64,000 nucleotides of DNA. Source: a virus. Positions 1-15,301 of this stretch are shown here, one piece after another. The stretch spans positions 34,898 to 98,897 of the IMG/VR virus record IMGVR_UViG_3300042563_000635, one strand, 5' to 3'. The position numbers and the translations under genes are program-made. The notes below the pieces were generated by a model, which was not told where the DNA came from, ran no database searches, and saw only the letters and a list, made by a program, of their open reading frames with translations. Every line of letters begins with the position of its first letter. Positions within the stretch are counted from its first letter, which is position 1.

Positions 1-737
1 ATAAAATCAAATTGATTCTGACCCATCCACTCTAATTCAGCAAATACTCTTTCTAATTCGAATATCTTTACTTTATTGTATGTCAAGCTACCCCAATCAC
101 AGAAGGTACATGCATAGGGGCATCCTCTGTTTGTTTCGATAGTTCCGTTCCAACGAATCTCAGGGTGCTTCTTCATTAGTTTATCGAATATACCCGTCAG
201 ATAAGGACTAGGAATCGTATCTAAGTCATCAATACGAACGGTATCACCTGTACTAACTGCTACCCCGTTGTCATTAACTAGCATACCTTTAATAGATTTA
301 TAGTCAGGGGTGTCTTTTAAATGTTCTTCTAATACTGCACGGAATGTTTTTTCACCCTCAAGCTTAACGCATATATCTAAGAAAGGGTATTGTTCAAAGA
401 TATCTTCTTTTTCGATAGGGAATTCGGGGCCGCCACCAATAATGAATAAATTAGGATTAGCTAATTTTAATGCTTTCCCCAATTCTTTAGTATAACTACG
501 ATTCCAAATATATGTACTGAAGCCAATTACATCACTGTCTTTTAATATCTCTACTGCATCTTCTATGTCTTCGCGGCGCCAAATAAATTCCCCCAATTCA
601 TAGTTTTCATTAATTGTAGGGAACTGATTTACGTAGCTCCACAGGATTCCCGGACTATACGGCAAGTAATATGCGTTTAATTCCTTAGGACCCTGTTGAA
701 AGTTAGGACTGACAAAGCTGATTATCTTTTTAGACAT
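1..737 (-). CDS. B12-binding-type radical SAM protein, N-terminal part (cut by window edge)
   Basis: About 245 residues are visible; the 3' end lies beyond the left edge. The start ATG (735-737) overlaps the stop of the upstream SGNH gene as ATGTCTAA. Residues 1-130 look like a cobalamin-binding (Rossmann-type) domain, with FIIGGGPEFP near residues 98-107 as in many B12-dependent radical SAM enzymes. The radical SAM cysteine motif CPYACTFC follows at C206, C210 and C213 and would bind the [4Fe-4S] cluster that cleaves S-adenosylmethionine. Family members typically methylate unactivated carbon or phosphorus, or rearrange substrates, but the substrate cannot be read from sequence. It is the last visible gene of a minus-strand operon with four other radical SAM genes. 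The family call is firm; the reaction is unknown. Confidence 0.85.
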   Translation of the reverse strand, partial: MSKKIISFVSPNFQQGPKELNAYYLPYSPGILWSYVNQFPTINENYELGEFIWRREDIEDAVEILKDSDVIGFSTYIWNRSYTKELGKALKLANPNLFIIGGGPEFPIEKEDIFEQYPFLDICVKLEGEKTFRAVLEEHLKDTPDYKSIKGMLVNDNGVAVSTGDTVRIDDLDTIPSPYLTGIFDKLMKKHPEIRWNGTIETNRGCPYACTFCDWGSLTYNKVKIFELERVFAELEWMGQNQFDF

Positions 738-1605
738 TTTTATTCTGTATGAAGGTGGCCAATTCTTTGGCTATAAACTTGTATCCTTCAACAGTTGGAT
801 GAATACAGTTAGTCAAATATTTAGCTGGCCAGGCCCTCTTACTGTAAAACTCATAATGTCCGCCCCAGTCCTTAGGGTTCATAAGTCCGTCTAATTCTAC
901 AAAACGCTGTACAAATGCACCGTATTTTGTTTGATTATGCAAATACGTAGACCAATCAAACTTGTTAAACACATTGCCGGCGTTTTCTAGTAGATATTTA
1001 GTGACTGATCCACCCGGTGATTGATTGAATGAGTTAGCAACAACTACTTTAAAGCCATGCGCCTTAGCAAATGATTGCAAGTTCAATAAAGCCATTAATG
1101 CATTATTTGCGGCAAATTGTTCACTCCATAGCATTTTACCGTATACCGCCCATAAAGGTTCTTCTGCGCCACCTTCACCTGCAATAGGCCATGCGCTACG
1201 CCACTTGTAATGTACAAATTCACCGTTACTATACCCATCGTCTTGATTTTCATTTCGTTTGGGGTACTGATGAAAGAAGTCTAATCGTTCAAATCCACTA
1301 AGCATAAGAATAATATATCCTTCACTATTGTCCCAATCAATGCGGTCGCAGAAATGTAATTGATTGACGGCGGCATTATTTCCTATACCACGGACTCCCA
1401 AGTTCATAGGGGTATACTCAGGGAAATGATTCACACACAGTTGATTGACCCAACTGTTTTCATGCTCATACTTACGTAAATGAAAGTCGGGAACACCCCT
1501 TAGTTGAACTTTTCCGTTGTATTGGTTCCATATTTCTTCAGGATAGCCGCCTTCGCCTTGCGTCCAACTGCATCCTAAACCTACAATGTATTTCTTTTTG
1601 CTCAT
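730..1605 (-). CDS. SGNH/GDSL-type hydrolase
   Basis: A 291-residue protein. The N-terminal GLGCSWTQGEGG (residues 9-20) fits block I of SGNH hydrolases, with S13 as candidate nucleophile. CIHPTVEGY near the C-terminus (about 267-275) fits block V, with H269 as candidate catalytic histidine. Family members hydrolyse esters, often acetyl groups on polysaccharides, and relatives act in acyl transfer to glycans. No signal peptide or membrane segment is seen, so a cytoplasmic or virion role is likely. It starts 1 base after the upstream gene's stop and overlaps the next gene. In this operon of sugar enzymes, trimming or decorating a glycan with acyl groups is a reasonable inference. The substrate is not known. 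Confidence 0.72.
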   Translation of the reverse strand: MSKKKYIVGLGCSWTQGEGGYPEEIWNQYNGKVQLRGVPDFHLRKYEHENSWVNQLCVNHFPEYTPMNLGVRGIGNNAAVNQLHFCDRIDWDNSEGYIILMLSGFERLDFFHQYPKRNENQDDGYSNGEFVHYKWRSAWPIAGEGGAEEPLWAVYGKMLWSEQFAANNALMALLNLQSFAKAHGFKVVVANSFNQSPGGSVTKYLLENAGNVFNKFDWSTYLHNQTKYGAFVQRFVELDGLMNPKDWGGHYEFYSKRAWPAKYLTNCIHPTVEGYKFIAKELATFIQNKNV

Positions 1606-1606
1606 G

Positions 1607-2686
1607 TTATATACCTAATCTTGGGCGTAAATGCCATTCTTTATTAGTGATGAAATGCAAATGACCCTTGTTATTATACACTTCTCCTAATAATTCATAA
1701 TCATTTTCTGTAGTTATGAATTTTAAACACTCTGGAATTAATTTATCTTTGTCTTGTAATGTTTTAAACATCTGCAAAGCCATGTTCCTATTGTGTTTTA
1801 ATTTTGATTTAATTTGTTCATACATCTTAAACTTTGCACTTGGATCACTATTAAATAGTGCTTTTAATCTTAGCAAGTTGTCTATTATGCCCTGTATGCG
1901 TTCCTCGACAGTGAGCATACTGTCAAAGTTGTAGTCAAACAATTCGTCATACATTTCGATACCGTATTCTGAATACAACCACTTATGATAATTCATACTA
2001 GATATCACTAAGTAAGGCTTTAATGCGCCCCAGGGTTTAGCCGTTTTTTCAGTGGGCACAAAGAAATCATTTCTATAGTCAGTTTCTGCTACTATATCAA
2101 TAAAGCCAGTGAAATAGCTTTTTGGTAGACGTCCAGCACTGAAAGTTTGATTAGAGTTTAATTGAAAATCAGGTTCGTCTGACAATACTGAACCATCATG
2201 ATACTTCCAATCGTACATAGGATTAGTGCGCAAGTCTGGATATCTGTATGTGACGATACCATCATTGATTAAGTCATTGTTTACTAGTAAATCTACAAAC
2301 AATTTACGTTCATACTTTGGATTGTTGTTATATGAAGTGAATAGCTTATTGCTTGTTTCAAACACGTTTACGTCACCGTAATCAATTATAGTGCCCTCAA
2401 CACATGCTAAATTACCATATGCACTGCCTAACGTATTGACCCCGTGTATATAGGGTCTTATCTCTTTGTCGGGGCCGGCCCACAATACGTACATGTATTT
2501 CTTATTTTCTATGAGCCAATTTTCGATTAGGTTGAACAAATTATCAAAAATTAGTTCTACATTAATTTCGCCCAATGATATTACGGTAATATAATCAGGA
2601 TTTTTTAATTTTATATCCTTAATGATATCAGTATACCATTCAACTCCCGTCTCAGGGAATACTTGTAACACATATACGCGGGTCAT
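1607..2686 (-). CDS. TEKTxKP-motif protein, possible glycosyltransferase
   Basis: A 359-residue protein of no family I can name with certainty. Its clearest feature is PTEKTAKPWGALKPYLVI at about 211-228, followed by a segment with spaced acidic and aromatic residues (YDELFDYNFD). The gene product at 3665-5005 has the same block (TEKTWKP...HPFIMVG), so the two share a domain. The block resembles in form the TEK-containing donor-binding motif of GT10 fucosyltransferases (VTEKLW...PVVxG), which suggests a GT-B-like transferase; this is inference only. The start ATG overlaps the stop of the epimerase gene as ATGA, implying coupled translation with it. Confidence 0.5.
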   Translation of the reverse strand: MTRVYVLQVFPETGVEWYTDIIKDIKLKNPDYITVISLGEINVELIFDNLFNLIENWLIENKKYMYVLWAGPDKEIRPYIHGVNTLGSAYGNLACVEGTIIDYGDVNVFETSNKLFTSYNNNPKYERKLFVDLLVNNDLINDGIVTYRYPDLRTNPMYDWKYHDGSVLSDEPDFQLNSNQTFSAGRLPKSYFTGFIDIVAETDYRNDFFVPTEKTAKPWGALKPYLVISSMNYHKWLYSEYGIEMYDELFDYNFDSMLTVEERIQGIIDNLLRLKALFNSDPSAKFKMYEQIKSKLKHNRNMALQMFKTLQDKDKLIPECLKFITTENDYELLGEVYNNKGHLHFITNKEWHLRPRLGI

Positions 2687-3663
2687 TTATCATCGGTTCC
2701 GCATTCTATCTGTTCAACAATCCATTTATATGTTTTATGTATACCTACTTCTAACGATTCTGTAGGAGCCCAATTTAATTTTTCACGTATCAATGTGTTA
2801 TCACTAGTACGACCCATAACTCCCATTGGCCCGGGTATATTTTTAATATGAACTTTTTTACCAACAAGATCGGCTATTAGATAGACTAGATTGTTAATTG
2901 ATATCATTCGAGAGCTACCTAAGTTGACTGGCTCTGAAAAATCACTTTCCATCAAACGCTGTATGCCATCTAAACATTCATCAATGAATAAAAAGCTACG
3001 AGTTTGAGTGCCCGGACCCCATATCTCTATTGTTCCGCCAGGCTCGACAGTTGCTACTTTTCTGCAAAGAGCCGCAGGTGCTTTCTCTTTGCCATTATTC
3101 CAAGATCCGTAGGGACCAAATACATTGTGAAAACGTGCAATACGTACTTCTATGCCATAGTTCTTAGCATACGTCAAATACAATCGCTCACTGAATAACT
3201 TTTCCCAACCGTACTCACTGTCAGGGTTTGCAGGGTATGCGCTTGATTCTGACAACACTGGGTTGTCAGGGTCTAGTTGATTGTGCTCTGGGTACATACA
3301 TGCGCTTGAACTATAGAATATTTTAGCGTTTTTATTCTTTCTACGAACATTATCTAATATGTTTAAATTAATCATTACACTGTTATGCATGATATCAGCA
3401 TCGTGTTCGCCGGTAAAGATGTAGCCGGCGCCGCCCATGTCGGCAGCTAATTGATATATTTCATCGTAACTAATTGTATGAAATAAGCTCTCTACATTCT
3501 GTTGATCTCTTAAATCTACCACATAGAATTCATCAGCCTGCGACTTACTGTATAAGGGTTCTTTTAAGTCCACACCTACTACGTAGTGACCAGCTTTCTT
3601 TAATCTCTCTACTAAGTGAGAGCCTATAAATCCACCCGCTCCACATACTAAAATCTTTTTCAT
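2683..3663 (-). CDS. GDP-mannose 3,5-epimerase
   Basis: A 326-residue short-chain dehydrogenase/epimerase-type enzyme. The NAD-binding glycine motif GAGGFIG sits at residues 8-14. Stretches typical of GDP-mannose 3,5-epimerase follow in order: AADMGGAGYIF (73-83), SSSACMYPE (118-126), YGWEK (151-155), RFHNVFGPYG, GKEKAPAALCRK, TRSFLFIDEC and the C-terminal RTSDN. Y151 and K155 form the SDR catalytic pair. C122 and the lysine of EKAP match the epimerisation residues known from the plant enzyme. The reaction converts GDP-D-mannose to GDP-L-galactose (with GDP-L-gulose as side product), so the phage could supply an unusual nucleotide sugar to the neighbouring transferase-like genes. Length is normal and all key residues are present. 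Confidence 0.92.
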   Translation of the reverse strand: MKKILVCGAGGFIGSHLVERLKKAGHYVVGVDLKEPLYSKSQADEFYVVDLRDQQNVESLFHTISYDEIYQLAADMGGAGYIFTGEHDADIMHNSVMINLNILDNVRRKNKNAKIFYSSSACMYPEHNQLDPDNPVLSESSAYPANPDSEYGWEKLFSERLYLTYAKNYGIEVRIARFHNVFGPYGSWNNGKEKAPAALCRKVATVEPGGTIEIWGPGTQTRSFLFIDECLDGIQRLMESDFSEPVNLGSSRMISINNLVYLIADLVGKKVHIKNIPGPMGVMGRTSDNTLIREKLNWAPTESLEVGIHKTYKWIVEQIECGTDDK

Positions 3664-3664
3664 A

Positions 3665-5005
3665 TTAATCCTTAGGTTCTTCTCTTAAGCGTTTAGAGGC
3701 TTCTACACGTATCTTATCTGCTACCGTTTTAGAAGTGTTAGTAGTCAATATCTTAAAGTTATGATCTACTATAGGCTTTACCTTACGCTTAAAGTCTAGT
3801 ATTTGCTCTGGTGTCCAGCTAGCAATTTCTTTACAAACTTTCACAATCTCAAACAGTCTACGCTTAGGATCTTCGATTTCGTCATATGATTCATCCCAGA
3901 AGTCATCAAACGTTTGAAATCCAAACTCACGTAATGTACGCAATGCACCTGCAGTTCCTACCATAATGAATGGATGTTTTTCTTTTGCAGGCTTCCATGT
4001 CTTTTCTGTAGCAGTTAGTTCAGTCCAATCAAAATTTGTTTCAGTTATGATACTAACTAAGCTGTTCTGATAAAAAGGTCTAGCGGCTGCATCAAAGTCA
4101 CCGCACATTCTTTGTATCTCTGTCTCTCCGTCAATTACTAACGGTAACTTAGCCATGAAGTTTTCAACATCTTTGTTACCTATTTGTAGCATAGGGTTTG
4201 AATATAAGTCAACTGTAGTCTTAAAATGAACACTGTTCATCTCAGGGTCAGTCAAGTTCATGCTATAATAGCTACGGTCAACGATGCCGGCTTTGTCTAA
4301 TGCTAGTGCAAGATGTGTACGGTGAGGTCTAAATCTACGATTCCAGCATAAGAATACTTTTTCAGGCACAGTGTCAGTGTCGTACACTGGTTCCGGAGTG
4401 TTCTGTAACTGTAATGATAATGCATGTTGTGATATAGGGAAAGGTATCATTATCATACGATGCATTGGATCATCGGGGATTCCATTTCGATCACACCAGT
4501 TGTTGTATAATTGTTCTGCGTTCATACAACCAGTAATGTATATGACCTTGCCCATTGGAATTCTATTGTAATGTCCGAAGTAGGCATGCATTGCACGTAA
4601 TTGTCCATCTTGTACCCATGCTTCGGGTGCATAGTCAATTAAGAAGAAGCCATTACGATCTCTGACTTGATGTGTTATGTGATTAGGAGTATGACTGAAC
4701 TCTAACAAACCACCACCATTCAAGAAATAGTTCTGAAACTGTATACGCCAAGCTAATGTATATGGGTATATAAACGGATCATGTTCTTCTAAGCCAAATG
4801 TAGAAGATAACGGGTGATTACCGTTGTGCATAAACACTCGCCAATATATATCATCTGCCCAAAAGAAATTACTACCATGTGCGTCGGTGCTTTCACCCAC
4901 ACTAGCGTAACTCATAATGTTAGGCAACTCTGTGTTCACCATTGGACCTCTTGGTCCAATCCAGCTGTAAACAATTTTTAACGGATCATTTTCATTTAAC
5001 TGCAT
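3665..5005 (-). CDS. TEKTWKP-motif protein, possible glycosyltransferase
   Basis: A 446-residue protein. KVFLCWNRRFRPHRTHLAL at about 216-234 and TEKTWKP...HPFIMVG at 333-350 are its most conserved-looking blocks, followed by GFQTFDDFWDESYD. The second block recurs in the protein at 1607-2686. I recall similar RPHR plus TEKTxKP arrangements in unassigned viral proteins thought to be glycosyltransferases, but cannot verify this. Its stop lies 1 base from the epimerase start and its own start overlaps the upstream radical SAM gene, so it sits in the middle of a coupled operon. A GT-B-like role using a nucleotide sugar is plausible; no reaction can be assigned. Confidence 0.5.
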   Translation of the reverse strand: MQLNENDPLKIVYSWIGPRGPMVNTELPNIMSYASVGESTDAHGSNFFWADDIYWRVFMHNGNHPLSSTFGLEEHDPFIYPYTLAWRIQFQNYFLNGGGLLEFSHTPNHITHQVRDRNGFFLIDYAPEAWVQDGQLRAMHAYFGHYNRIPMGKVIYITGCMNAEQLYNNWCDRNGIPDDPMHRMIMIPFPISQHALSLQLQNTPEPVYDTDTVPEKVFLCWNRRFRPHRTHLALALDKAGIVDRSYYSMNLTDPEMNSVHFKTTVDLYSNPMLQIGNKDVENFMAKLPLVIDGETEIQRMCGDFDAAARPFYQNSLVSIITETNFDWTELTATEKTWKPAKEKHPFIMVGTAGALRTLREFGFQTFDDFWDESYDEIEDPKRRLFEIVKVCKEIASWTPEQILDFKRKVKPIVDHNFKILTTNTSKTVADKIRVEASKRLREEPKD

Positions 5006-5984
5006 TTTTTTCTAACCATTCGCCATCAAATTTAGGAATAATAATATCTGTTCCGCAATGACAGTGTTCTTTCTCACATATGATTTGTTTTGGGCCTACA
5101 CGATTAATATCATCTAATATATGACCCACGTAACCACCCATGCCGCAACTTGCTAGGCTCATCTCGCCTACGGGATTGATAAAGATACAATCACCCACGT
5201 TGCAACTCCAACCGTTAAAGAAGTTGTTTCCTGCTACAATAACTTCGTTGCTGTTACACACTTCAGTAGAATTATCTTCATACTTGTTATAACTAACTGT
5301 CAACGTAGTGCGTTTCATCGGCTTACGTTTAGTTTGTTGAATCTCCGTTGTATGCTCACGTAACCATGCTTCTTTAGCAGGATCTTTGTAGTGCCAAGGG
5401 CCTGTGTTTACTGACATTTCATCAAACAACGGTGTCCACTCTAAGAAGTAATTAGGCATTACTGTCTTAAGATAGTTTCCATAGTCAACTACTTCCCAGA
5501 ATCTTTCTTCGTGCATTAACATCTTAGTAGAAAGGTAGTTGACCTTGTCACATAAGAACATAGAGTTTTCTTCATATCGCTGTTTGTCTGCGAATTCAAT
5601 GTGAAAGCTACCCACTACATCGTCAAATAGATGATAGTGTTTCTTCCACCACTCTAGTGGACGACTCAAGTTAGTGTTAACTGCAAGAGTAGCACGAGGT
5701 AACTTTTCGTAAATCCATTCACAGATAGGAATAAAGTTCTTCCAAGCTGTAGGTTCTCCACCGCTGAAGAAGAACTTAAAGTTCTTATACCCTGCTGACT
5801 TGTAGCGATTGATAATCGTTTCTAAGTTATTTAGGTATATGTCTAAGTTACCTTCGTTACGGTCAGTGCCTCCCCAGTTGCCAGGGTTACAATAACTGCA
5901 CTTATAGTTGCAGAAATTGTTTACTTGCCATGTTATTGCGAGATAGGGCTGGGGAGCCTCAATCGCTATTAGCTTCTTGCCCAA
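4992..5984 (-). CDS. Radical SAM protein with C-terminal SPASM-like cysteines
   Basis: A 330-residue protein. The [4Fe-4S]/SAM motif CNYKCSYC is at C25, C29 and C32, and FFFSGGEPTAW, the SAM-binding GGE segment, follows about 50 residues later. The C-terminal part holds several cysteines (CNVGDC, SCGMGG, CEKEHCHC) that could bind an auxiliary Fe-S cluster, as in SPASM or twitch proteins that modify peptides or mature enzymes. The start used is TTG at 5984, preceded by AGAGGT at normal Shine-Dalgarno distance; no in-frame ATG lies near. It overlaps the upstream radical SAM gene by 16 bases. Unlike its three neighbours, it has no N-terminal twitch-like region. The substrate is unknown. Confidence 0.85.
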   Translation of the reverse strand: MGKKLIAIEAPQPYLAITWQVNNFCNYKCSYCNPGNWGGTDRNEGNLDIYLNNLETIINRYKSAGYKNFKFFFSGGEPTAWKNFIPICEWIYEKLPRATLAVNTNLSRPLEWWKKHYHLFDDVVGSFHIEFADKQRYEENSMFLCDKVNYLSTKMLMHEERFWEVVDYGNYLKTVMPNYFLEWTPLFDEMSVNTGPWHYKDPAKEAWLREHTTEIQQTKRKPMKRTTLTVSYNKYEDNSTEVCNSNEVIVAGNNFFNGWSCNVGDCIFINPVGEMSLASCGMGGYVGHILDDINRVGPKQIICEKEHCHCGTDIIIPKFDGEWLEKNAVK

Positions 5985-7240
5985 TCGAATACCTCTTTTA
6001 GTTCTGGAATAACTTCTTCCAATTTTTCATCCCTAAAGTCATCTAGTTCTTCATTGAACTTGATAAACTCTTGAATGCCACCCTTGTTCTCATCGCCCAC
6101 AGTCAAGTTATAGATAATCATTTTAAATCCATTGTAGATATCAATGTTATCTTTGTAACGATTCTGATAGACACGGTACAATTCAGCGAGTCTTCGCTTT
6201 ACACTAGCGGGTAGGATCATAATGTTAGCATACCAGGGGTTGGTAGCTAAATTAAAGCGTGGGCTAGATTTAGTATCAATAAACCCTTCATTGATCATAT
6301 AATCAAAGAAGTCAGGGAAAGTAAACACATTCCAAATACTGATGGTTGGAGTAATCTGAAATTCAGCATGCGGTACTTGCTCTTTTACTAACTTGATATT
6401 ACTAACAATACGATCCCAATCTGTACCCTTTCTGATACATTCAGCTACATCACCATGTGCGTCAAGTGATGCCCAAATTTTCAGTTTAGGGAATTTCTTC
6501 CAATACGCAATCAAGTCAATGTCTTTTTTATACTTCAAGCTACTAAAGTTTGTAGTATATGTCAATTCAACTTGATCCGTTAATCCGTTTTCAATCCAAT
6601 AGTCTAAGCATTCATAGTGCTCAGGAGTAATGATAATCTCGCCACCTGCAAAATAGACTTCTGTTACATCTTTGAGATATGGCTTAAGTTTAGCCATGAA
6701 TCCCATTTCTTCTGCTGAGTTAATAACAATCTTAGTGGTCTTGAAGTATTTCTCATAGTTGTCCATACCAACACGGTCGACAAACTCTTGTGCCCATTGA
6801 CTTGAACATCCTGGACCACAGCTTCTGCACTTCATATTACAGATACTACTAAAACGCAAGTCCATGTACTTCATTTCAAAGTCAATGAGGCTTCCGTCTT
6901 CCATTGTATTTTCTGCAATGTAGTTTACGTACTCTAGGCCCTTGCGCTTATTATGAGACTGGCGCATTGTCCAAGTACCCATTAGTTCTAAGTCATAGCA
7001 ACGCTTACATGCTTCGACCGGTTCATCATTCATCATAGCAGTGCGCAATTTCTTATAATCACTACTATTCATCATGTTGATGATTGATTCACCATCTTTT
7101 AAGTCTGCAACAGGCATATTGCTATCTGCAATACAGCAAGGCATTACTCGACCGTCAGGCCAACTGTGAAAATGAACCCAGGGCAATACACAGAAATGTT
7201 TTCCGTGCTTAACCAGGTTCTCTACTGTTACGTTATCCAT
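5969..7240 (-). CDS. Radical SAM protein with N-terminal twitch domain (copy 1)
   Basis: A 423-residue protein. The N-terminal region carries FCVLPWVHFHSWPDGRVMPCC (C17, C35, C36) and CKRC (C78, C81). This matches the arrangement of radical SAM proteins with an N-terminal twitch domain, thought to hold an auxiliary Fe-S cluster. The radical SAM motif CNMKCRSC follows at C134, C138 and C141, then YFAGGE as the GGE-type SAM contact. The same architecture is repeated in the next two upstream genes, which points to duplication and specialisation. The start ATG lies 3 bases after the upstream stop. Function is unknown; peptide or sugar modification are both open. Confidence 0.85.
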   Translation of the reverse strand: MDNVTVENLVKHGKHFCVLPWVHFHSWPDGRVMPCCIADSNMPVADLKDGESIINMMNSSDYKKLRTAMMNDEPVEACKRCYDLELMGTWTMRQSHNKRKGLEYVNYIAENTMEDGSLIDFEMKYMDLRFSSICNMKCRSCGPGCSSQWAQEFVDRVGMDNYEKYFKTTKIVINSAEEMGFMAKLKPYLKDVTEVYFAGGEIIITPEHYECLDYWIENGLTDQVELTYTTNFSSLKYKKDIDLIAYWKKFPKLKIWASLDAHGDVAECIRKGTDWDRIVSNIKLVKEQVPHAEFQITPTISIWNVFTFPDFFDYMINEGFIDTKSSPRFNLATNPWYANIMILPASVKRRLAELYRVYQNRYKDNIDIYNGFKMIIYNLTVGDENKGGIQEFIKFNEELDDFRDEKLEEVIPELKEVFDWARS

Positions 7241-7243
7241 TGA

Positions 7244-8473
7244 TTACTCCAATAATTCAGATAATTTATTTAACTCGGGGAATGTTTTCCAGAAACTTTC
7301 CTCACGTATTCTGTCAAGCGATTTAGTATGTCCTAAGAACTGAGTCTTAACGTCACTCCAAGTATCACTCTCATTAGCAAAATTTACAGCATCACGAACT
7401 AATCTTGACAAGCTAGTGCCGTCGTTATCGTTAGCTTCTGCCCATTTCAATGCTTTTTCCTGTGCTAATGGCTTCAATGATTTTGGTAAACTTTTTGCAC
7501 TGTAATACATAGGATGAACTGCAAGATATAAACTATGATACCAATCTTCTCTACGGATAATATTCTTATCTTTCAAGTATTGATAGAACTCACCAATCGT
7601 CAAGTAATTAAAAATAGAAAATACAGTATTCATTTGAAAACTAACATAGTCCAAATCTCTAAAGGTTAATAGATTGCTTTCTACTTTACCCCAATCAGTA
7701 CCTGAACGTAGTAATTCAGCACGTTCGCCGTAATGGTCAATTGAACAACTCAACTCAACCTTCTTAAAGTGTTTCCAAAGATCAAGTACATCATGGTTCT
7801 TGTACTTGATATTACTAGCATTGGTGTTATATCTTAATACTACATCAGTGCGGCCTTTACGAATCATTTCTTCTAGTATAACATAATGTTCTTCGGTAAT
7901 CAAGGGCTCTCCACCCGCAAAGTATGCTAGGTCTATGTGTTCTACTTGATCCAATACTTCTTCTAGTACTTTACCCTTACCATCGTCTACGTGAATAACA
8001 ATCGGGTGATCCTTATCGTAATTCTTGTTCATCTCTAGGCCCCACTGACTAGAAAACTCTGAACCACATGTACGACATTTGAAGTTACAAATGTTACTGA
8101 ATCTGATATCAAAGTAACGCATCTTAAACTCGTCTACTGTTCCATCTTCTTGGGTAGTGGGCACAACTTCGTCATAATACTTACCAAAGTGTTCTTTGCT
8201 ATAGTTACGGAAACTGTGTGGTCCTGCTTCTTCATGCTGATAACAGAACTTGCAGATTTCATTCTTACGCTCATTCAACATATCCAATCTAAGTTCTTTC
8301 ATCTTAGGGCTGTTGAATGCTTTGTGTAAAGTAACTTCTTTAGTGTTACCAAAGGGCTTTGTATAGTCGTTTGAACAGCAAGGATATATGTCTCCTTTGG
8401 GAGTCACGTTTAAATGAATCCAAGGAAACATACAAAATGTTTTGCTGTCGTTTAGTAAATAGTCTTTGTTCAT
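7244..8473 (-). CDS. Radical SAM protein with N-terminal twitch domain (copy 2)
   Basis: A 409-residue paralogue of the flanking genes. N-terminal twitch-like cysteines are FCMFPWIHL...YPCC (C14, C32, C33) and CKFC (C74, C77). The catalytic motif is CNFKCRTC (C129, C133, C136), followed by YFAGGEPL. The segment MRYFDIRFSNICNFKC closely parallels MKYMDLRFSSICNMKC of copy 1, so the two diverged from one ancestor. The start ATG overlaps the upstream stop as ATGA, indicating translational coupling. No signal peptide or membrane segment is visible. Retention of all cluster cysteines argues that it is active rather than a relic. Confidence 0.85.
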   Translation of the reverse strand: MNKDYLLNDSKTFCMFPWIHLNVTPKGDIYPCCSNDYTKPFGNTKEVTLHKAFNSPKMKELRLDMLNERKNEICKFCYQHEEAGPHSFRNYSKEHFGKYYDEVVPTTQEDGTVDEFKMRYFDIRFSNICNFKCRTCGSEFSSQWGLEMNKNYDKDHPIVIHVDDGKGKVLEEVLDQVEHIDLAYFAGGEPLITEEHYVILEEMIRKGRTDVVLRYNTNASNIKYKNHDVLDLWKHFKKVELSCSIDHYGERAELLRSGTDWGKVESNLLTFRDLDYVSFQMNTVFSIFNYLTIGEFYQYLKDKNIIRREDWYHSLYLAVHPMYYSAKSLPKSLKPLAQEKALKWAEANDNDGTSLSRLVRDAVNFANESDTWSDVKTQFLGHTKSLDRIREESFWKTFPELNKLSELLE

Positions 8474-9879
8474 TTAAATGGATTCAGTTGATTTGTCTCT
8501 TGGCATAGTCTGTAAAAACTTAGCATTTCTGGAAATACAGATAACATATCTGCTTCTCTACGTTCATCTAATTCGTTGAACCAATTATAGAAATCTCTAC
8601 GTCCTTCAATTAGCTTTTCTTCAGGATAAACAGTCTCGGCCATGTAGTCAACTACACGCTTAAATTTTTCGTACTCAATGCTACTAAAAGCATCACTGCG
8701 TTTATCGTCAGTATTTTCTTCCATGTATTTCAGTGCTTCGTACATGTAAGGCATGAATTCTTCTTTAGGAAGAATGTTCATATCGTATTGAATAGGATCA
8801 CGTAGATAAGGTGTATCAAAACGCACACGATGTTGTGGGTTTATAGGATCGTCATACCATCCATATATCTTGCGCCATTCAATAAACTTCTCTAAGAAAC
8901 TTTTAAATGTAGTTACACTAAAGATATTGAATGTAATCATGAATGTGATCGGACTGTCTGTGCGAGTTAGATACGTGTGAAAATTCTTTTCCCACAACTC
9001 TAAATCTAATCCAGTACGAATGTATTCAGCACGTTCACCCCAAGTATCTAAACTAGTGAACAACTTAAAGTTTTTAATCTTACCTTCACCTGTAAGTTTT
9101 TTAACTTTGTCTGATAAACGCTCGATAAGAATAGGCTTAGTACCCAAGTTGCTGTTGATGTTCAACTCTAACCAGGGCATAGGATCTTCTTCAATCTTTT
9201 CAAGCAATGTCCATGTGCTCTTATGTAGTGTAGGTTCGCCACCAGTTACACGCATGATATTCAATGTCTTACGCATCTCTGGCCACCACTCCCAAAACGC
9301 ATCAACGTATGGATTGTCATCTTCACGTTGATACAATCGCATCCAGTCAATATCACAACGGTGATTCTTCACATTAGTGACAGGACCATTCTGCTCAATC
9401 TCTTTGTAGAAGCTTGTACTATACTTAGGATGACAGTAGCCACACTTGAAGTTACATTCGTTACCAAAGTTGATTTCGATGTACTCGGGGTTGATGTTTT
9501 GATTCCACGGACCCTTTGCGGTTTGTTCATATCGTTCTTCGGTAAAGATACTTGCGTTACGAATGTGACGGTCACTGATGTAATCAGGACCCATAGCTTC
9601 AATGTTCCAGCAATACTGGCATCCAGTGGGCTTACCACCATCAAGCATTAGTTTACGTTCTTCTTTCTTCTGCTGTGTGTTATGTAATGCAGAAGGGTTA
9701 TCATATAATTCTTCTAAAGGAATCTTATGAGGTTGAGGATGGTAACAACTATGAGTCTCTCCTGATTGCAAATACATTGTTACATGATGCCATTTAGCAA
9801 GGCAAAAAGTAGGACCAGTTTCGTTTTCGATCTTGATCCTAATGTCTTTGATTCTTTTTTGTTCATGACTTTCGCTCAT
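8470..9879 (-). CDS. Radical SAM protein with N-terminal twitch-like region (copy 3)
   Basis: A 469-residue protein using the ATG at 9879, which overlaps the upstream stop as TAATG and has AAGGA five bases ahead; an ATG two codons earlier is poorly placed for ribosome binding. It is the most divergent of the three paralogues. Twitch-like cysteines are C26, C45, C87 and C90 (FCLAKWHH, HSCYHP, CQYC); the CC pair of the other copies is reduced to one Cys. The catalytic motif CNFKCGYC lies at about C142, C146 and C149, with MRVTGGEPTLHK further on. Divergence from its neighbours suggests a different substrate or step in a shared pathway. Confidence 0.83.
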   Translation of the reverse strand: MSESHEQKRIKDIRIKIENETGPTFCLAKWHHVTMYLQSGETHSCYHPQPHKIPLEELYDNPSALHNTQQKKEERKLMLDGGKPTGCQYCWNIEAMGPDYISDRHIRNASIFTEERYEQTAKGPWNQNINPEYIEINFGNECNFKCGYCHPKYSTSFYKEIEQNGPVTNVKNHRCDIDWMRLYQREDDNPYVDAFWEWWPEMRKTLNIMRVTGGEPTLHKSTWTLLEKIEEDPMPWLELNINSNLGTKPILIERLSDKVKKLTGEGKIKNFKLFTSLDTWGERAEYIRTGLDLELWEKNFHTYLTRTDSPITFMITFNIFSVTTFKSFLEKFIEWRKIYGWYDDPINPQHRVRFDTPYLRDPIQYDMNILPKEEFMPYMYEALKYMEENTDDKRSDAFSSIEYEKFKRVVDYMAETVYPEEKLIEGRRDFYNWFNELDERREADMLSVFPEMLSFYRLCQETNQLNPFK

Positions 9880-10832
9880 TACCATCCTTCAATTTTTCGA
9901 ATAACTTCCATCTCAGTGACTAACGGGCCTTGATTATGATAGTCTGTTTGATAATGACGCTTAAAGAACTTACTTTGTTCTTTACCTAGCGTACACATTG
10001 GCAAACCTAACTTGTCATGTAATGCCGCGCCTAACAATGTTGCTTCACGTTCAGGATCTCGGTTAATATGTTCTTCCCATAACACCGTGTAATTGTCAAA
10101 CCATTGAACATTATGTGCGTCCCAATCAGTTAAGAGAGTCATGTATGTACCGAGTCTAGCACCGTAGATAGCCCACATGCCGTTCTCTACATCCGCACCT
10201 ACGTTCTGCCAAATAGTCAAGTTGTTCAAATTGCGACTAGCAACTGTTTCTTTAAACTCATCTACTGAAGGAACTTCACCTTTGTTAAGACACATCTTGA
10301 CTCCTTCTCTAAAGCCTGCTCTCCAAGCTTGAAACGGAGTATGATTGGGGTATGTTGTGCTGTAACAATCATACATTGCCCAATACAAGTTATCTTTGCT
10401 ATCTAAACAGAAGTCAGCAATACGAGCCGCATCTCCGTCTTTTTGATTTTCATGTGTCTTCATGTTAGCAACATAAGTCTTTGTCCAAGAACTCATGCCA
10501 CCATTACCATAACGCAATCCGTTGATAGCATTAACTGCCTTCCAACGAAATTGTGCTTTGGTGTATGATGGATCTCTGCCTGTAAAGTCTAGTTGCATAT
10601 TGAAGAATGATTCATCGGGCATATTGTCCCCGTCAATCAATATGAACCGCTCAGTGTCTGATGCGGCGCCGGCAGCTTTGTGTGCCGCATCTGAACCCTT
10701 GATTCCGTCTACCCGCTTTGCCCAAGGAACCATGTTTTTAATTTTTAGCCAAAATTCTTCTTTTTGTGGCTCGTCATAGCTTAGGTAGATGCAGTCCAAA
10801 TCGGCTACATCAACTATATTATTTAAGCTCAT
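9879..10832 (-). CDS. Putative GT-A-like glycosyltransferase
   Basis: A 317-residue protein. The N-terminal half reads like a GT-A nucleotide-sugar domain: CIYLSYDEPQKEEFW at 14-28, then RFILIDGDNMPDE with a DxD-type DGD at 67-69 that could bind metal and nucleotide sugar. The rest is rich in aromatic residues, with no further motif I recognise. Similar YLSYDE...DGDN proteins occur as hypotheticals in T4-like phages, from memory. It overlaps the upstream 118-residue gene by 14 bases and the downstream radical SAM gene by 1 base. Donor and acceptor are unknown. The transferase call rests mainly on the DxD context and neighbours. Confidence 0.55.
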   Translation of the reverse strand: MSLNNIVDVADLDCIYLSYDEPQKEEFWLKIKNMVPWAKRVDGIKGSDAAHKAAGAASDTERFILIDGDNMPDESFFNMQLDFTGRDPSYTKAQFRWKAVNAINGLRYGNGGMSSWTKTYVANMKTHENQKDGDAARIADFCLDSKDNLYWAMYDCYSTTYPNHTPFQAWRAGFREGVKMCLNKGEVPSVDEFKETVASRNLNNLTIWQNVGADVENGMWAIYGARLGTYMTLLTDWDAHNVQWFDNYTVLWEEHINRDPEREATLLGAALHDKLGLPMCTLGKEQSKFFKRHYQTDYHNQGPLVTEMEVIRKIEGW

Positions 10833-11175
10833 ATGTGTTTAGTTTCCATCTATTAATGTTGTCGCCTTCTGATGAAACTACTATACTGATGTCCTCTGCT
10901 TCACATAGTTGACCTTGGGTAAGATGTGGCATTAACTTAGATACAATTGCATGATTACTAGCAGTAGATATACGCCCGTCGATAATTCGAAGGTCCGGTC
11001 TTGCTTGTGCATACGTAATAGCATCGATTACTAGATACTTACCTTCAAGTTTTTCGCATGTGTAGCAAATAACTTTACCGGTAGCTTCGTCATAATACAA
11101 ACGAAACTCAGGAGCCTGTATTACAGGAGCCTCCCAAAGAATTAGAATATCATCATCTTGTGTAGTTTCAGTCAT
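10819..11175 (-). CDS. Conserved hypothetical protein, 118 residues
   Basis: A small acidic protein with no recognised catalytic motif. The middle (EFRLYYDEATGKVICYTCEK) and C-terminus (RWKLNTYELK) look structured and resemble hypotheticals I recall from aquatic T4-like phages. There is one CYTC cysteine pair. It is embedded between two glycosyltransferase-like genes, overlapping both (8 bases upstream, 14 downstream), so it is probably co-translated with them. It is the only small protein inside the enzyme operon. It is therefore the only candidate here for a partner or substrate of the radical SAM enzymes, though it has no leader/core appearance of a RiPP precursor. Confidence 0.7.
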   Translation of the reverse strand: MTETTQDDDILILWEAPVIQAPEFRLYYDEATGKVICYTCEKLEGKYLVIDAITYAQARPDLRIIDGRISTASNHAIVSKLMPHLTQGQLCEAEDISIVVSSEGDNINRWKLNTYELK

Positions 11176-11971
11176 AGGCTTTTAGTATTTTAGTAGAAAA
11201 CGTCTTCACATGATAGTGAAACGGGTAAAGCTGTGGACATGAATTGATGCGCAATGTATGTGGCAATATTTCATAAACTAGTGCGTCAGTCCAGTCTTCG
11301 GTAGGTAAGTTATTTATTAACCTTTTCATATGCACCATACTCATTTCTTTAAAATCAGGTAGTGTACAATTCTCGACCCCTACAATGTGCGCTGCCAAAG
11401 CATATACCCAATCAGTAGTAGCTTCTTCATACGGACTACATTTTAATGTAGCTCTGAACTCAGCCCAGTTTTCAAATAGGTGTCTAACTACTTCAAAAAA
11501 GTTCTTTGCCGTGTCAGACTTTTTAAAATAAGTGATTGCGTTGTAAGTATCAGGCAATTTGTTATCATCAATGAATCTGCGGTATACTCTGGACGGGGAT
11601 AATTCCTGTTTAAAGTCTCTAATGTTAGTAGATATCACTAAATCTCTATGCTTCAATGCATCCCACCAATAGTCTATTGAACTGGGAAGATATATATCTG
11701 CTTCTAGTTTTATAGTGTATTCATATGGACTAGCATCATACACCTGCCAATCATTGTTCAATTTCCAATAACTTTTGGGTGCTTGATCTCCGTAGGGCAA
11801 GGGTATAACTTTATCATACAAAGATTTGTTTTTTATTTTATTGTCAGTAATAATGGATACTTTAGCGTCGGGCATAGTACGCTTGATGCTTTTAGCTAAT
11901 GCATCGGCACATTTCTGATATGTCTCTAATGAGCCGCCATCCTGGGCAATGATTACAAAACCTTTATCCAT
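11168..11971 (-). CDS. Putative GT-A-like glycosyltransferase
   Basis: A 267-residue protein beginning MDKGFVIIAQDGG. KVSIITDN (37-44) and YTIKLEADIYLP (85-96) look like the nucleotide-binding and metal-binding strands of a GT-A fold, with EAD in place of a classic DxD. WQVYDASPYEYT aligns with YQAYDLSPYDET of the next gene (11964-12773), so the two are paralogues. No signal peptide or membrane helix is present. It overlaps both neighbours by 8 bases. Donor, acceptor and reaction are unknown. Loss of the first Asp of DxD may indicate altered metal use, or that the protein is only a GT-fold relative. Confidence 0.55.
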   Translation of the reverse strand: MDKGFVIIAQDGGSLETYQKCADALAKSIKRTMPDAKVSIITDNKIKNKSLYDKVIPLPYGDQAPKSYWKLNNDWQVYDASPYEYTIKLEADIYLPSSIDYWWDALKHRDLVISTNIRDFKQELSPSRVYRRFIDDNKLPDTYNAITYFKKSDTAKNFFEVVRHLFENWAEFRATLKCSPYEEATTDWVYALAAHIVGVENCTLPDFKEMSMVHMKRLINNLPTEDWTDALVYEILPHTLRINSCPQLYPFHYHVKTFSTKILKAYD

Positions 11972-12773
11972 TTTTAATTAACTCCAAAAAGTTTTCTTTA
12001 TTCATTACGTGAAAGTCTGTATCTTTGATATTGATATATTCTTTACGAATTTTACCTCGTTGCCAATTGTCAAACATTACGGTATACTCTGTATTGAATT
12101 CATCTGTGCTTTCTGCGTATACTGAAGTATTTTTACCAACGTGTAATAGATTCCAGGGAATAATGTCTGAATTAATGTTTAGATGCCCATTAGCAATACG
12201 CAAGGCCAATGTCAATGCGTAATCATTGCGGTATACTCCGGCAATGAAACTATGAATGTTTGCGTAATGCTCGTAATTTTTTTGAACCATTTCTAAGCAT
12301 TCAAAGATTTGTTTTGCTCTTTGAGTTTTTTTAAATGTTATGACTGTAGCCCACAGTGTTTTAAAGCTATACGCACTTAATATTTCTTGAGGTGCTTTTG
12401 GGTGCATTAGAAATGAAGTAGTATCATGACAACAAAAATCATCACAAATGTCAAATGTGCTTAGTAAGCGGTCACTATTTACTACGTAGTCGGTGTCCAA
12501 TAATAGTGTTTCATCATATGGACTTAGGTCATATGCTTGATATCGACCTTTGTTAATCCAAACTACATAGTCTCGGATGTTGTTCTTGTCCGGTTCTACA
12601 ACAATAGTGTTGTCAAACTTGTATTTGGAATTATTTGGTATGCTGGATTCATCAGTAACAATTGTTACCGGAAGTCCTAAAAAATGATTGATTCTCTTTG
12701 CAGTGTACTCCGCCATAGCGTAGTAATCGTATTTGGGAGAGTTAAACGCAAAGAGTAGTGCGCCTCTACTCAT
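11964..12773 (-). CDS. Putative GT-A-like glycosyltransferase
   Basis: A 269-residue protein using the ATG at 12773, which overlaps the upstream stop as ATGA. An ATG eight codons earlier is possible but would overlap the upstream gene more. The N-terminus MSRGALLFAFNSPKYD fits the start of the GT-A-like paralogue downstream better than the extended form. LPVTIVTDE (34-42) and LLLDTDYV (90-97) form the expected strands, with D93 and D95 as a complete DxD. The paralogue at 11168 shares the YDxSPYxxT segment just ahead of this motif. Glycosyl transfer is likely; donor and acceptor are unknown. Confidence 0.6.
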   Translation of the reverse strand: MSRGALLFAFNSPKYDYYAMAEYTAKRINHFLGLPVTIVTDESSIPNNSKYKFDNTIVVEPDKNNIRDYVVWINKGRYQAYDLSPYDETLLLDTDYVVNSDRLLSTFDICDDFCCHDTTSFLMHPKAPQEILSAYSFKTLWATVITFKKTQRAKQIFECLEMVQKNYEHYANIHSFIAGVYRNDYALTLALRIANGHLNINSDIIPWNLLHVGKNTSVYAESTDEFNTEYTVMFDNWQRGKIRKEYINIKDTDFHVMNKENFLELIKNG

Positions 12774-13075
12774 CGTTTTTTCTCTAGCTCTGCCCATTCA
12801 TTTAGCCACTCACGCATTATAGATTCGTAAGTTTCATTAAGTTTAGCTAAAAGTTCTGTACGATTTACCTCAACCGGATTTTCAAAACTGTCAACTAAGA
12901 TGACCGTATTAGATTGAGAATTATTTAAAAAATTGATTGTTTGAAGGTTTGCTCTCCAAAGGCCGCCTTGCTCTGCAACGATTAATCGTGTTTCGTACTT
13001 TTCTTTTAGATATGATTTGGCAGCGTTGTGGCTAAATCGGGCTTTAGCTTCGCTAATTAAAGTTTTTGTGTCCAT
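12770..13075 (-). CDS. Conserved T4-like hypothetical protein
   Basis: A 101-residue charged protein. ARFSHNAAKSYLKEKYE, AEQGGLWRAN and the Trp-rich C-terminus MREWLNEWAELEKKR resemble a hypothetical I recall as conserved beside structural genes in marine T4-like phages. The function is unknown and no catalytic motif is seen. It has its own upstream signals: a CTAAATA late-type box (13092-13098) and AGGAG before the ATG, so it may head the transcript into the downstream enzyme operon. That arrangement would place at least part of the operon under late control. Confidence 0.75.
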   Translation of the reverse strand: MDTKTLISEAKARFSHNAAKSYLKEKYETRLIVAEQGGLWRANLQTINFLNNSQSNTVILVDSFENPVEVNRTELLAKLNETYESIMREWLNEWAELEKKR

Positions 13076-13123: not shown

Positions 13124-14074
13124 TTATGTACCAGAGACTGTACCAGAAAGGGTGACTGCACCCCAAGTATTTGATATGTTAGTAATCGCAGGGGGTCGAA
13201 CTGTCAACGTAGTAGCCGAGTTAGCAGCCGCTGTTAAGCCGTCCGGAACTTCATCCCAGACAGTATAAATTGTAATTATGGATCCTGCATCACCATTAGC
13301 ACCTTGTGTGCCGTTACTTTGAACGATTACACGGATAAATGTACTTAGGTAACCACTAGGTCCGGTTGATGCAGTTTGTGTGAAAGCAGTAACGTTTGAT
13401 GCTGTCAGTGCATAATATCCAGTGTTGGTACTAATTGTAGGGGCATTTCCACCACCACCAACTTTAGTTATACCATTATATGATGTGCCGGCAACTGTGA
13501 TAGCACCTGACGTTGGACTGCTTAATACTACGGTCCCTACGTTACTGGCTAAGTTATTTAATAACAAATTGATACCTGTTCCACTAGGATGCGCACACGT
13601 AATTGCTAATTGTCCACCTGCATTAAAAAAGTATCTAGCCGCATCGCCGTTAGCAAATGTAGCAGTATGGGTGAATGTAATTGCTGAACTCCATGTGGTC
13701 GCTCTAGTTGCAGTGTTTGAAGTAGTACTTCCTTGGGCTGCGGCATTTAAGCGACTGTTATAAATTGTAGTTAGGTTAGTTGGTATTGCAGACAAATATG
13801 TTACTGTTCCACCTGCTGAAGGTGCAGTAACGCTGGTAATGCTTGTCCCCTGATGTGACGCAGAGTTTGCTGTACTGTTTACTAGAGAGGCCCAGTTCGA
13901 TGCCGCAACCGCTGTACCTACTGCAACGTTAGCAACAGCAGTCTGTCCATATCCTGCGTTTGTGCCACCGGTTGCCCAAACAGTATTCAATTTACCGCTT
14001 GAGGTTACAGGGTTACCACCAACAAGATTGTTGAAGTCTGTGGCTTCAATTAAACCAAATTGTGCGTAACTCAT
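13124..14074 (-). CDS. Virion structural protein, tail-fibre-like
   Basis: A 316-residue protein rich in Ser, Thr, Ala, Gly and Asn and poor in charge, typical of beta-structured phage fibres or decoration proteins. The N-terminal region holds AGYGQ, also present near the N-terminus of the next gene (14084). The block DAARYFFNAGGQLAI near the middle is a motif I know from phage structural proteins of uncertain role. The C-terminus VTLSGTVSGT is beta-prone. AAGGATA precedes the start. It ends the structural operon, with 48 bases to the next gene downstream. A short fibre or surface decoration role is likely. Confidence 0.65.
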   Translation of the reverse strand: MSYAQFGLIEATDFNNLVGGNPVTSSGKLNTVWATGGTNAGYGQTAVANVAVGTAVAASNWASLVNSTANSASHQGTSITSVTAPSAGGTVTYLSAIPTNLTTIYNSRLNAAAQGSTTSNTATRATTWSSAITFTHTATFANGDAARYFFNAGGQLAITCAHPSGTGINLLLNNLASNVGTVVLSSPTSGAITVAGTSYNGITKVGGGGNAPTISTNTGYYALTASNVTAFTQTASTGPSGYLSTFIRVIVQSNGTQGANGDAGSIITIYTVWDEVPDGLTAAANSATTLTVRPPAITNISNTWGAVTLSGTVSGT

Positions 14075-14083
14075 CTTTTATCC

Positions 14084-15301
14084 TTATTTTATAATTACAA
14101 TAGCTTCAACTGTACCAACGCCAGATGTAGTCTTATTTTCTAACGATCTTCCAATCGTATTGAATGCGTTTGCTTCACCTTCTTCGGCAGCTCTTGCAAT
14201 ACCTTTTCCTGCACTTACTAATCGTTGATGCTTTTTAACTATACCAGTAACTTTTACTTTAACTCGGCCGCTCATTGCGACCGGTGGGTGCGTTTTATCA
14301 GTGCCGGCACCTGAATTCATCAAATAAGCCGCAGTGTCTGAAATAACACCAAATACATCTTCACTTAGTTCGTACTGAACAGCAGTAATTTCTTCTTCGC
14401 CGCCTAACTCAACAACAGTACCTGCATCATACACGGCATCAGCCGCAAAACGTTCAGCCAAGTCAGCATATGTTGCATTGAATCTTGATCCTGCACTTAA
14501 CGTCCAGTTACCAGTAATAGTACCTGCAGTCGTATTTGCACCGGTTGTTAATGTAGTTGCTTGAGTTGTTGTAGAAAGAATGGCACCGTTGTATACTGGT
14601 AAATAACTTGCTACATTACTGTTACTATATGTACCTGCAAAACTGATAGGATCACCGTTAGAATACATATACTTGTCTGTTCTAACACCATATAAGTTTG
14701 CGCCTGCACTATTACCTATAAACAAGTTACCATTAGTTATAATGATAGAGTTACCAGATAATCCACCGTTTGAAGTCCATGTACCAGTAATAGAACCTGC
14801 AGTTATGTTTGAACCTGTTGTAATAACAGTAGTTCTAAACGTTCCTATGTTAGCAGTAGTGATGTTTGCGTCTGCAATATTAGCATTTGCTGATACTGTA
14901 AGATAGTTAAATGACCCAGCATTACCGGTAACGTTATTAGTTGCAGCCAAATTATTAGCCTGAACGTTTCCAGTTACTGTAACTGCACCAAATGTTGTAG
15001 TACCACCTGAACTGGTTGAAGTCAATGCTAGCCAAGCTAATGCGTTTGCTTCACCGTCTGTGGGACAAACATATAGTGTGCTATTATTTGTATTGTACCA
15101 TAACTGACCACGTATAGGATTTGCCGGAGGGGTAGTGTCGGCAAAATTTTCTAGTTGATGGACAAAGTTGGTATCTAATGTTTGGCCGTAGCCGGCGTAG
15201 TTTCTGCCGGGAAGCCCGATAGATGTACTAGTAGTATTAATCGTACCATCCGGTACTGTCGTTAAAACTGTCCCATCACTTTTAACAATTGTATATGCCA
15301 T
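14084..15301 (-). CDS. Tail-fibre-like protein with C-terminal YADLAE domain
   Basis: A 405-residue protein. The N-terminus (LPGRNYAGYGQ, NPIRGQLWYNT) is a pattern seen in structural proteins of T4-like aquatic phages, probably a virion-attachment domain. Residues about 95-280 are low-complexity Thr/Asn/Gly repeats (TTGSNITAGSITGTW, TTGANTTAGTITGNW), consistent with a beta-helical shaft. From about 283, YADLAERFAADAVYDAGTVV and VFGVISDTAAYLMN start a C-terminal domain common at the ends of phage fibres, probably a trimerisation or maturation domain related to intramolecular chaperones. Whether it self-cleaves cannot be told. A late-type GATAAATA box lies upstream. Receptor binding is the likely role. 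Confidence 0.7.
   Translation of the reverse strand: MAYTIVKSDGTVLTTVPDGTINTTSTSIGLPGRNYAGYGQTLDTNFVHQLENFADTTPPANPIRGQLWYNTNNSTLYVCPTDGEANALAWLALTSTSSGGTTTFGAVTVTGNVQANNLAATNNVTGNAGSFNYLTVSANANIADANITTANIGTFRTTVITTGSNITAGSITGTWTSNGGLSGNSIIITNGNLFIGNSAGANLYGVRTDKYMYSNGDPISFAGTYSNSNVASYLPVYNGAILSTTTQATTLTTGANTTAGTITGNWTLSAGSRFNATYADLAERFAADAVYDAGTVVELGGEEEITAVQYELSEDVFGVISDTAAYLMNSGAGTDKTHPPVAMSGRVKVKVTGIVKKHQRLVSAGKGIARAAEEGEANAFNTIGRSLENKTTSGVGTVEAIVIIK

Follow-up and report, generated by a model that had tools for sequence, protein, structure and literature searches.

A conserved array of N-terminal-twitch radical SAM genes in a T4-like phage and its possible role in an unusual-sugar pathway

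The DNA analysed here, referred to as the window, is a stretch of 64,000 nucleotides covering positions 34,898 to 98,897 of the IMG/VR virus record IMGVR_UViG_3300042563_000635. This 98,897-base record carries T4-like portal and baseplate genes and comes from an uncultured, T4-like phage from water. On the minus strand of the window lie three consecutive genes, T3, T2 and T1, encoding radical S-adenosylmethionine (SAM) proteins with a twitch domain in front of the radical SAM core, followed by a fourth radical SAM gene, rS4. The four make up a conserved module of locked gene order that many aquatic phages share. Because this order is kept across relatives and sugar-building genes lie alongside, we read the array genes as steps in making an unusual sugar and not as recent copies of one another. 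We see about an even chance that T3, T2, T1 and rS4 are separate enzymes of one phage pathway building or modifying such a sugar; the best reading is that they would carry out successive steps in the synthesis of a modified, aminosugar or aminocyclitol-like glycan.

The array genes and their cysteine ligands

T1 (window positions 5969..7240, 423 aa), T2 (7244..8473, 409 aa) and T3 (8470..9885, 471 aa) abut or overlap each other (7240/7244 and 8473/8470). According to the open reading frames (ORFs) of the window, the order of transcription is T3, T2, T1, rS4, GTb, an epimerase gene, GTa and an SGNH-like gene, so that T3 is the first gene of the array and T1 the third. The first-pass annotation of this DNA had described three consecutive genes with a cysteine-rich N-terminus before the CxxxCxxC motif; the ORFs on the minus strand and the whole-protein scores on NF033640 (N_Twi_rSAM, twitch domain-containing radical SAM protein) confirm this, with T1 at 357 bits, T2 at 373 bits and T3 at 317 bits against a cut-off of 170 bits. 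Only the end of the third gene, given there as 9879, had to be moved 6 bases further to 9885. The model spans T3 end to end, and the comparison with this catalogue family gave a full-length match, the same domain order and no structural difference for T1 to T3. The N-terminal twitch layout is thus uncommon, as had been noted, but it is already catalogued as a curated NCBIfam family. Searches of the open-licence PMC literature for the accession NF033640 and for 'N-terminal twitch' turned up no paper.

In T1 and T2 the SPASM/twitch domain (PF13186) precedes the radical SAM domain in the Pfam matches, while Pfam detected in T3 the radical SAM domain and no PF13186, and the T3 twitch was placed by alignment. 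With this placement, the twitch cysteines are N-terminal to CxxxCxxC in all three proteins. A cysteine-rich N-terminus is likewise common to the three, but the motif FCxxPW proposed for all of them reads FCxxKW in T3. The pairwise scores of about 221 bits for T1 against T2 and of 38-49 bits for T3 against the others (E 2e-10 to 7e-14) are far beyond chance, which supports true paralogy with T1 and T2 close and T3 distant.

An alignment of 25 divergent proteins revealed seven invariant cysteines, in T2 numbering C14, C32 or C33, C74, C77, C129, C133 and C136. From first to last cluster cysteine, the twitch domains extend over 6998..7192 in T1 (C17, C35/36, C78 and C81; PF13186 at residues 17-82 and alignment), 8243..8434 in T2 (C14 to C77; PF13186) and 9610..9804 in T3 (C28, C47, C89 and C92; invariant columns and hairpin register), all on the minus strand. 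For a broader count, 486 viral and bacterial proteins were used, of which 13 with a gap at a cysteine column were dropped; all seven cysteines are kept in 468 of the remaining 473, and one twitch cysteine is absent in the other five. Since the invariant twitch positions are C14, C32/33, C74 and C77, a single cysteine at the CC pair does not mean ligand loss, and it is indeed found in 120 of the 468 seven-cysteine proteins. T3 therefore has the full set of cluster ligands. Ratios of nonsynonymous to synonymous substitution rates (dN/dS) of T1 to T3 against the two nearest contigs are 0.015-0.042 and thus equal to or below those of neighbouring genes; for several distant pairs dS was saturated and gave no value. 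The three genes are under strong purifying selection. Degeneration of the third copy, which had been described as drifted and keeping only one cysteine of the CC pair, is ruled out by the ligand conservation and the dN/dS values.

Predicted structures were obtained with AlphaFold at high confidence (predicted local distance difference test, pLDDT, 94.6 for T2 and 91.9 for T3). According to DSSP, the last residue of the second hairpin strand is 30 in the T2 model, with cysteines at 32/33, and 45 in the T3 model, with a cysteine at 47. By this register, T3 C47 would equal the first cysteine of the T2 pair in a hairpin one residue longer, unlike in the sequence alignment, which puts the T3 cysteine under the second; the assignment within the pair is therefore model-based and tentative.

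The description of the N-terminal domain as a twitch was borne out by profile searches of the PDB. The whole profile matched BtrN at residues 184-258 (4m7t, E 4.7e-6), and the N-terminal domain alone, with the T2 twitch matching, hit residues 164-238 (4m7s, E 0.004), which in both cases is the C-terminal twitch of BtrN. BtrN, from butirosin biosynthesis, acts on an aminocyclitol. It shares with T1 to T3 the four-cysteine twitch pattern C...C...CxxC, by sequence alignment, and the radical SAM core, but carries its twitch C-terminally, while in T1, T2 and T3 it stands before the core. Judged from sequence, the N-terminal domain is a relocated BtrN-type twitch, predicted to bind a second cluster. 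Passages of PMC6231123 describe BtrN as the dehydrogenase of butirosin, its auxiliary cluster being fully ligated; of the seven-cysteine SPASM motif (two auxiliary clusters) as given there, T1 to T3 have only half.

Conserved gene order in viral relatives

The fourth gene, rS4 (4992..5984, minus strand), overlaps T1 and was left out of the earlier count of radical SAM genes, which holds for the three N-twitch genes. Its product has the core first (PF04055), and an alignment with bacterial counterparts indicates twitch-like cysteines at the C-terminus (C261, C280, C303, C308 and C310); on NF033640 it scores 29.9 bits, compared with the cut-off of 170.

To count gene orders, the best 80 of 579 loci from a scan with T3 (579 viral relatives) and the best 80 of at least 209 relatives from a scan with rS4 were analysed. 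Loci were counted without dereplication by genome, and the T3-, T2- and rS4-anchored sets have contigs in common. After setting aside 16 of the 80 T3-anchored loci that end before rS4, T3 was found with at least two further N-twitch genes and rS4 in 56 of 64 loci, nine of these 56 with one other ORF between. Among the 80 rS4-anchored loci, all have at least two N-twitch genes upstream, and T1 is directly upstream of rS4 in 76, a small ORF standing between in the other four. Many relatives have one or two extra T2-like copies. The conservation extends to the flanks: u317 (9879..10832, minus strand), a gene directly before T3 whose product has a DGDN motif, precedes T3 in 72/80 T3-anchored loci, and GTb (3665..5005, minus strand), glycosyltransferase-like by motif, is the conserved partner right after rS4 (48/56 T3-anchored loci; in 70/80 rS4-anchored loci, one of the next three genes downstream of rS4 is GTb-like, counting both strands). 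As every copy forms an orthologue group of its own and the order of these groups is fixed, specialisation of the copies, as the first-pass annotation proposed, is likely.

T2, T1, rS4 and GTb also stand together behind T3 in nine loci (L045-L052 and L062) from a group of phages that are more distant. Homologues of the fibre genes and of the glycosyltransferase genes GTc and GTd, which lie upstream of the array in the window, were not called in the available DNA of these loci, of which only L046 and L051 extend far upstream; reading of the upstream genes of L045, L046 and L050 likewise revealed none of them. In the rS4-anchored set, the L062 contig has a u317 homologue upstream (L291), so the distant group is not wholly without the upstream genes of the window.

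These loci bear on the possibility that the substrates are amino acids in a protein of the phage or host, modified in a manner resembling anaerobic sulfatase-maturating enzymes (anSME) or enzymes of ribosomally synthesised and post-translationally modified peptides (RiPPs). The putative virion or fibre proteins fib1 and fib2 (13124..15301, minus strand), encoded upstream in the window and in most relatives, would be candidate substrates, and the best fold matches of the T2 core (residues ~117-370) include peptide enzymes (anSMEcpe, Z 12.8; CteB, 12.3; also SuiB and SkfB) besides BlsE (12.8) and DesII (12.5). Hydroxylases of the 2-oxoglutarate (2OG) and Asp/Arg type near bacterial arrays fit as well. 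However, since T1 to T3 abut or overlap, the array has no space for a precursor gene; Pfam gave no domain resembling a RiPP recognition element (RRE) at E 0.1, the small ORFs outside the array lying beyond this search; and L046, with several kb of upstream DNA, has the array with rS4 and GTb and no recognisable fibre genes. We regard protein modification as unlikely, though worth keeping in mind, and favour a sugar pathway over fibre modification because GTb stays with the array where fibre, GTc and GTd homologues were not called.

Origin of the copies

The earlier reading of duplication followed by specialisation stands as far as paralogy and specialisation are concerned, but not for a duplication with drift in the phage lineage. 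In a tree of 125 rows, the clade of T3 has 15 rows, 8 of them bacterial; T1 lies near proteins of Bdellovibrionia and T2 belongs to a virus-only set. A tree of 44 rows groups T3 with bacterial rows (support 100/100) and T1 with bacterial T1 proteins from T1-rS4 pairs (90/96), T2 again being virus-only (99/89). The approximately unbiased (AU) test rejected one clade of all viral copies (p-AU 8.6e-5) and a clade of viral T1 and T2 (p 0.006); the tested groups were chosen with the tree in view, except for the single phage origin, which came from the earlier annotation. A phylogeny had been proposed there to decide between duplication in phages and duplication before transfer from bacteria. It rejects a single duplication within phages, with T3 and T1 next to bacterial counterparts.

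A recent tandem duplication in the phage with a degenerating third copy is accordingly highly improbable. The adjacency of the genes speaks for it, as do the extra T2-like copies, which show that tandem expansion occurs in phages; on the phage side, tandem duplication is visible only for these. Against it stand the trees and AU tests, the retention of all ligands and the low dN/dS. The tandem-duplication reading is thus mostly wrong.

In three Bdellovibrionia loci, T1 is followed directly by the rS4 counterpart, and T3-like genes are close in two of them (L149 and L152) and not in the third (L154). One Bdellovibrionia genome has 33 N-twitch matches, 19 above cut-off and 13 of these within 30 kb, and none of 14 control genomes has a match above cut-off. 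Islands of N-twitch genes were observed in Bdellovibrionia (L207, with an Asp/Arg hydroxylase and a 2OG oxygenase-like gene alongside) and in Bacteriovoracaceae (L217). A contig assigned to a Rhodobacteraceae metagenome-assembled genome (L144, NZVE01000006.1) is probably a phage contig binned with a bacterium, because it has the entire phage block with a T2 that is 74% identical.

Sugar genes and the proposed pathway

Downstream of GTb, the window encodes an NAD-dependent nucleotide-sugar epimerase/dehydratase (EPI, 2683..3663; PF01370, E 5.7e-44; phrog_540), GTa (1607..2686), a distant GTb relative (phmmer, 22 bits), an SGNH-like protein by motif (730..1605, no Pfam match) and the start of a B12-binding radical SAM protein (1..737), all on the minus strand. 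The latter has 642 aa and extends past the window (L304:13707-15635; PF02310 and PF04055). The operon continues beyond the window, where the record has two B12-binding radical SAM proteins, a UDP-sugar-dehydrogenase fusion, a DegT aminotransferase-like gene and a carbamoyltransferase gene, and, beside the last two, a StrB1-like amidinotransferase of 328 aa (L304:2731-3714). In the PDB it matches inosamine-phosphate amidinotransferase best (1bwd, 221 bits, E 2.2e-64), with HsvA second (129 bits). Among 61 downstream protein clusters of relatives, six are nucleotide-sugar dehydratases/epimerases, three UDPG/GDP-Man dehydrogenases, two DegT, two FkbM methyltransferases, one a dTDP-sugar isomerase and one a carbamoyltransferase; the B12-radical-SAM gene occurs in 59/80 and the UDP-sugar dehydrogenase in 26/80 rS4-anchored loci.

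For cluster binding, reaction, substrate, step order and purpose, we infer the following course. Each array enzyme would bind one [4Fe-4S] cluster via CxxxCxxC and cleave SAM to a 5'-deoxyadenosyl radical, which abstracts hydrogen from the substrate. The N-terminal twitch would hold a second cluster that accepts or relays an electron, as in a dehydrogenation or an epimerisation. Amidination, amination or carbamoylation of the product may follow, catalysed by the StrB-like, DegT-like and NodU-like enzymes encoded nearby, before phage glycosyltransferases attach the modified sugar to a glycan. This glycan would most likely be that of the host surface, where the change would block rival phages, or of the virion. 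A more elaborate version, in which large T4-like aquatic phages carry a self-contained series of radical enzymes (in this record three N-twitch, one C-twitch and two B12-dependent) that makes a guanidinylated, carbamoylated aminocyclitol-like sugar that re-coats host or virion, with relatives of its enzymes in predatory Bdellovibrionia, is speculative and rather improbable.

Several observations weigh against a sugar pathway. The fold scores tie peptide with sugar or nucleoside enzymes, and choosing the substrate by fold was therefore abandoned. Neither Pfam nor the PDB gave a match for GTb, GTa or u317 (u317 and GTb were not identified in the PDB profile searches), so that the closest array partners are glycosyltransferase-like by motif only. 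The amidinotransferase was found in 19/80 rS4-anchored loci (within 8 kb) and in 0/80 T3-anchored loci (within 10 kb) and is thus not a constant partner in the DNA examined. The 71 neighbours of bacterial arrays comprise 10 Radical_SAM, two Asp/Arg hydroxylase and one glycosyltransferase family 2 matches; bacterial arrays are not clearly within sugar islands, and their neighbourhoods, considered as proof of a sugar substrate, gave no support. Finally, according to passages of PMC7029224, sugar genes abound in any case in the region with which such phages recognise their host.

Two further functions were considered. The array could supply phage DNA with a hypermodified nucleobase or nucleotide, or have another part in nucleotide metabolism: in L046 it adjoins PurA-like and IMP-dehydrogenase-like genes (assigned by eye), and sugar transferases and amidinotransferases could conceivably decorate bases. 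In the lineage of the window, however, baseplate and fibre genes adjoin the array, which is part of the tail/host-recognition region, and its accessory genes belong to nucleotide-sugar metabolism; this function is quite unlikely. Auxiliary metabolism such as haem synthesis comes into view since many viral radical SAM/SPASM genes are labelled ahbD in surveys, a gene that passages of PMC7288430 list among 14 globally conserved viral auxiliary metabolic genes and passages of PMC9301287 describe as frequent in Baltic viruses. Yet no AhbD-named model was among the T1 to T3 matches at E 0.1 (the presence of such a model in the library was not checked), rS4 matched an AhbC model with E 3e-4 only, far below its cut-off, and no haem genes are among the families named in neighbouring loci; we consider this function very unlikely.

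Cultured phages provide precedents for a sugar pathway, with radical SAM genes of the conventional type accompanied by comparable accessory enzymes. Campylobacter phages CP220 and CPt10 carry five radical SAM genes and an amidinotransferase as an interchangeable module, according to a passage of PMC2853527, and the CP220 record has genes of the nucleotide-diphospho-sugar-transferase fold beside it. The combination of several radical SAM genes with an amidinotransferase also occurs in the record studied here, but the CP220 radical SAM proteins have the core first and match the array in the core only (23.6 and 45 bits). Synechococcus phage S-SCSM2R (PQ898602.1) has an amidinotransferase (421 bits) and a DegT protein (252 bits) homologous to those of our record, together with glycosyltransferases and one radical SAM gene of conventional order that matches the array in the core only; the stretch read has no N-twitch array. 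In the variable host recognition cluster of pelagimyophages, which are T4-like as is the source phage, radical SAM cassettes stand together with tail fibres and with glycosyltransferases, GT8 among them; the relevant passages of PMC7029224 name neither the NF033640 family nor an order-locked array.

Further genes and observations

Upstream of u317 on the minus strand, GTc (11168..11971) is a glycogenin-like (GT8) glycosyltransferase (profile to glycogenin-1, E 8.8e-6) and GTd (11964..12797) is weakly GTc-like (phmmer, 21 bits). Of the fibre genes, fib2 (14084-15301) matches virion structural phrog_14394 and Peptidase_G2 (E 9e-6), as expected for a self-cleaving (autoproteolytic) fibre protein. 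Giant ORFs of 6493 aa (window 16121-35602) and 2784 aa (L305:982-9336) were found; the former sits where a passage of PMC7029224 places VrlC, for which it is a candidate by position. The array-bearing phage L046 encodes a 106-aa protein (L046:893-1213) that by eye resembles an IscA-type Fe-S carrier. Vibrio phage K566 (L143), a named phage record, has six N-twitch matches, two of them above cut-off.

Conclusions

In many aquatic phages, members of a still uncharacterised radical SAM family whose twitch is relocated make up a conserved module with a locked gene order; Bdellovibrionia have arrays of the same family. In the record studied here, this NF033640-type module is tied to streptomycin-type accessory enzymes, so that inosamine and aminosugar derivatives become substrates to test for a family for which no biochemistry was found in the literature. 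As a candidate idea, some viral genes called 'ahbD' may also be explained by this family and not by haem synthesis.

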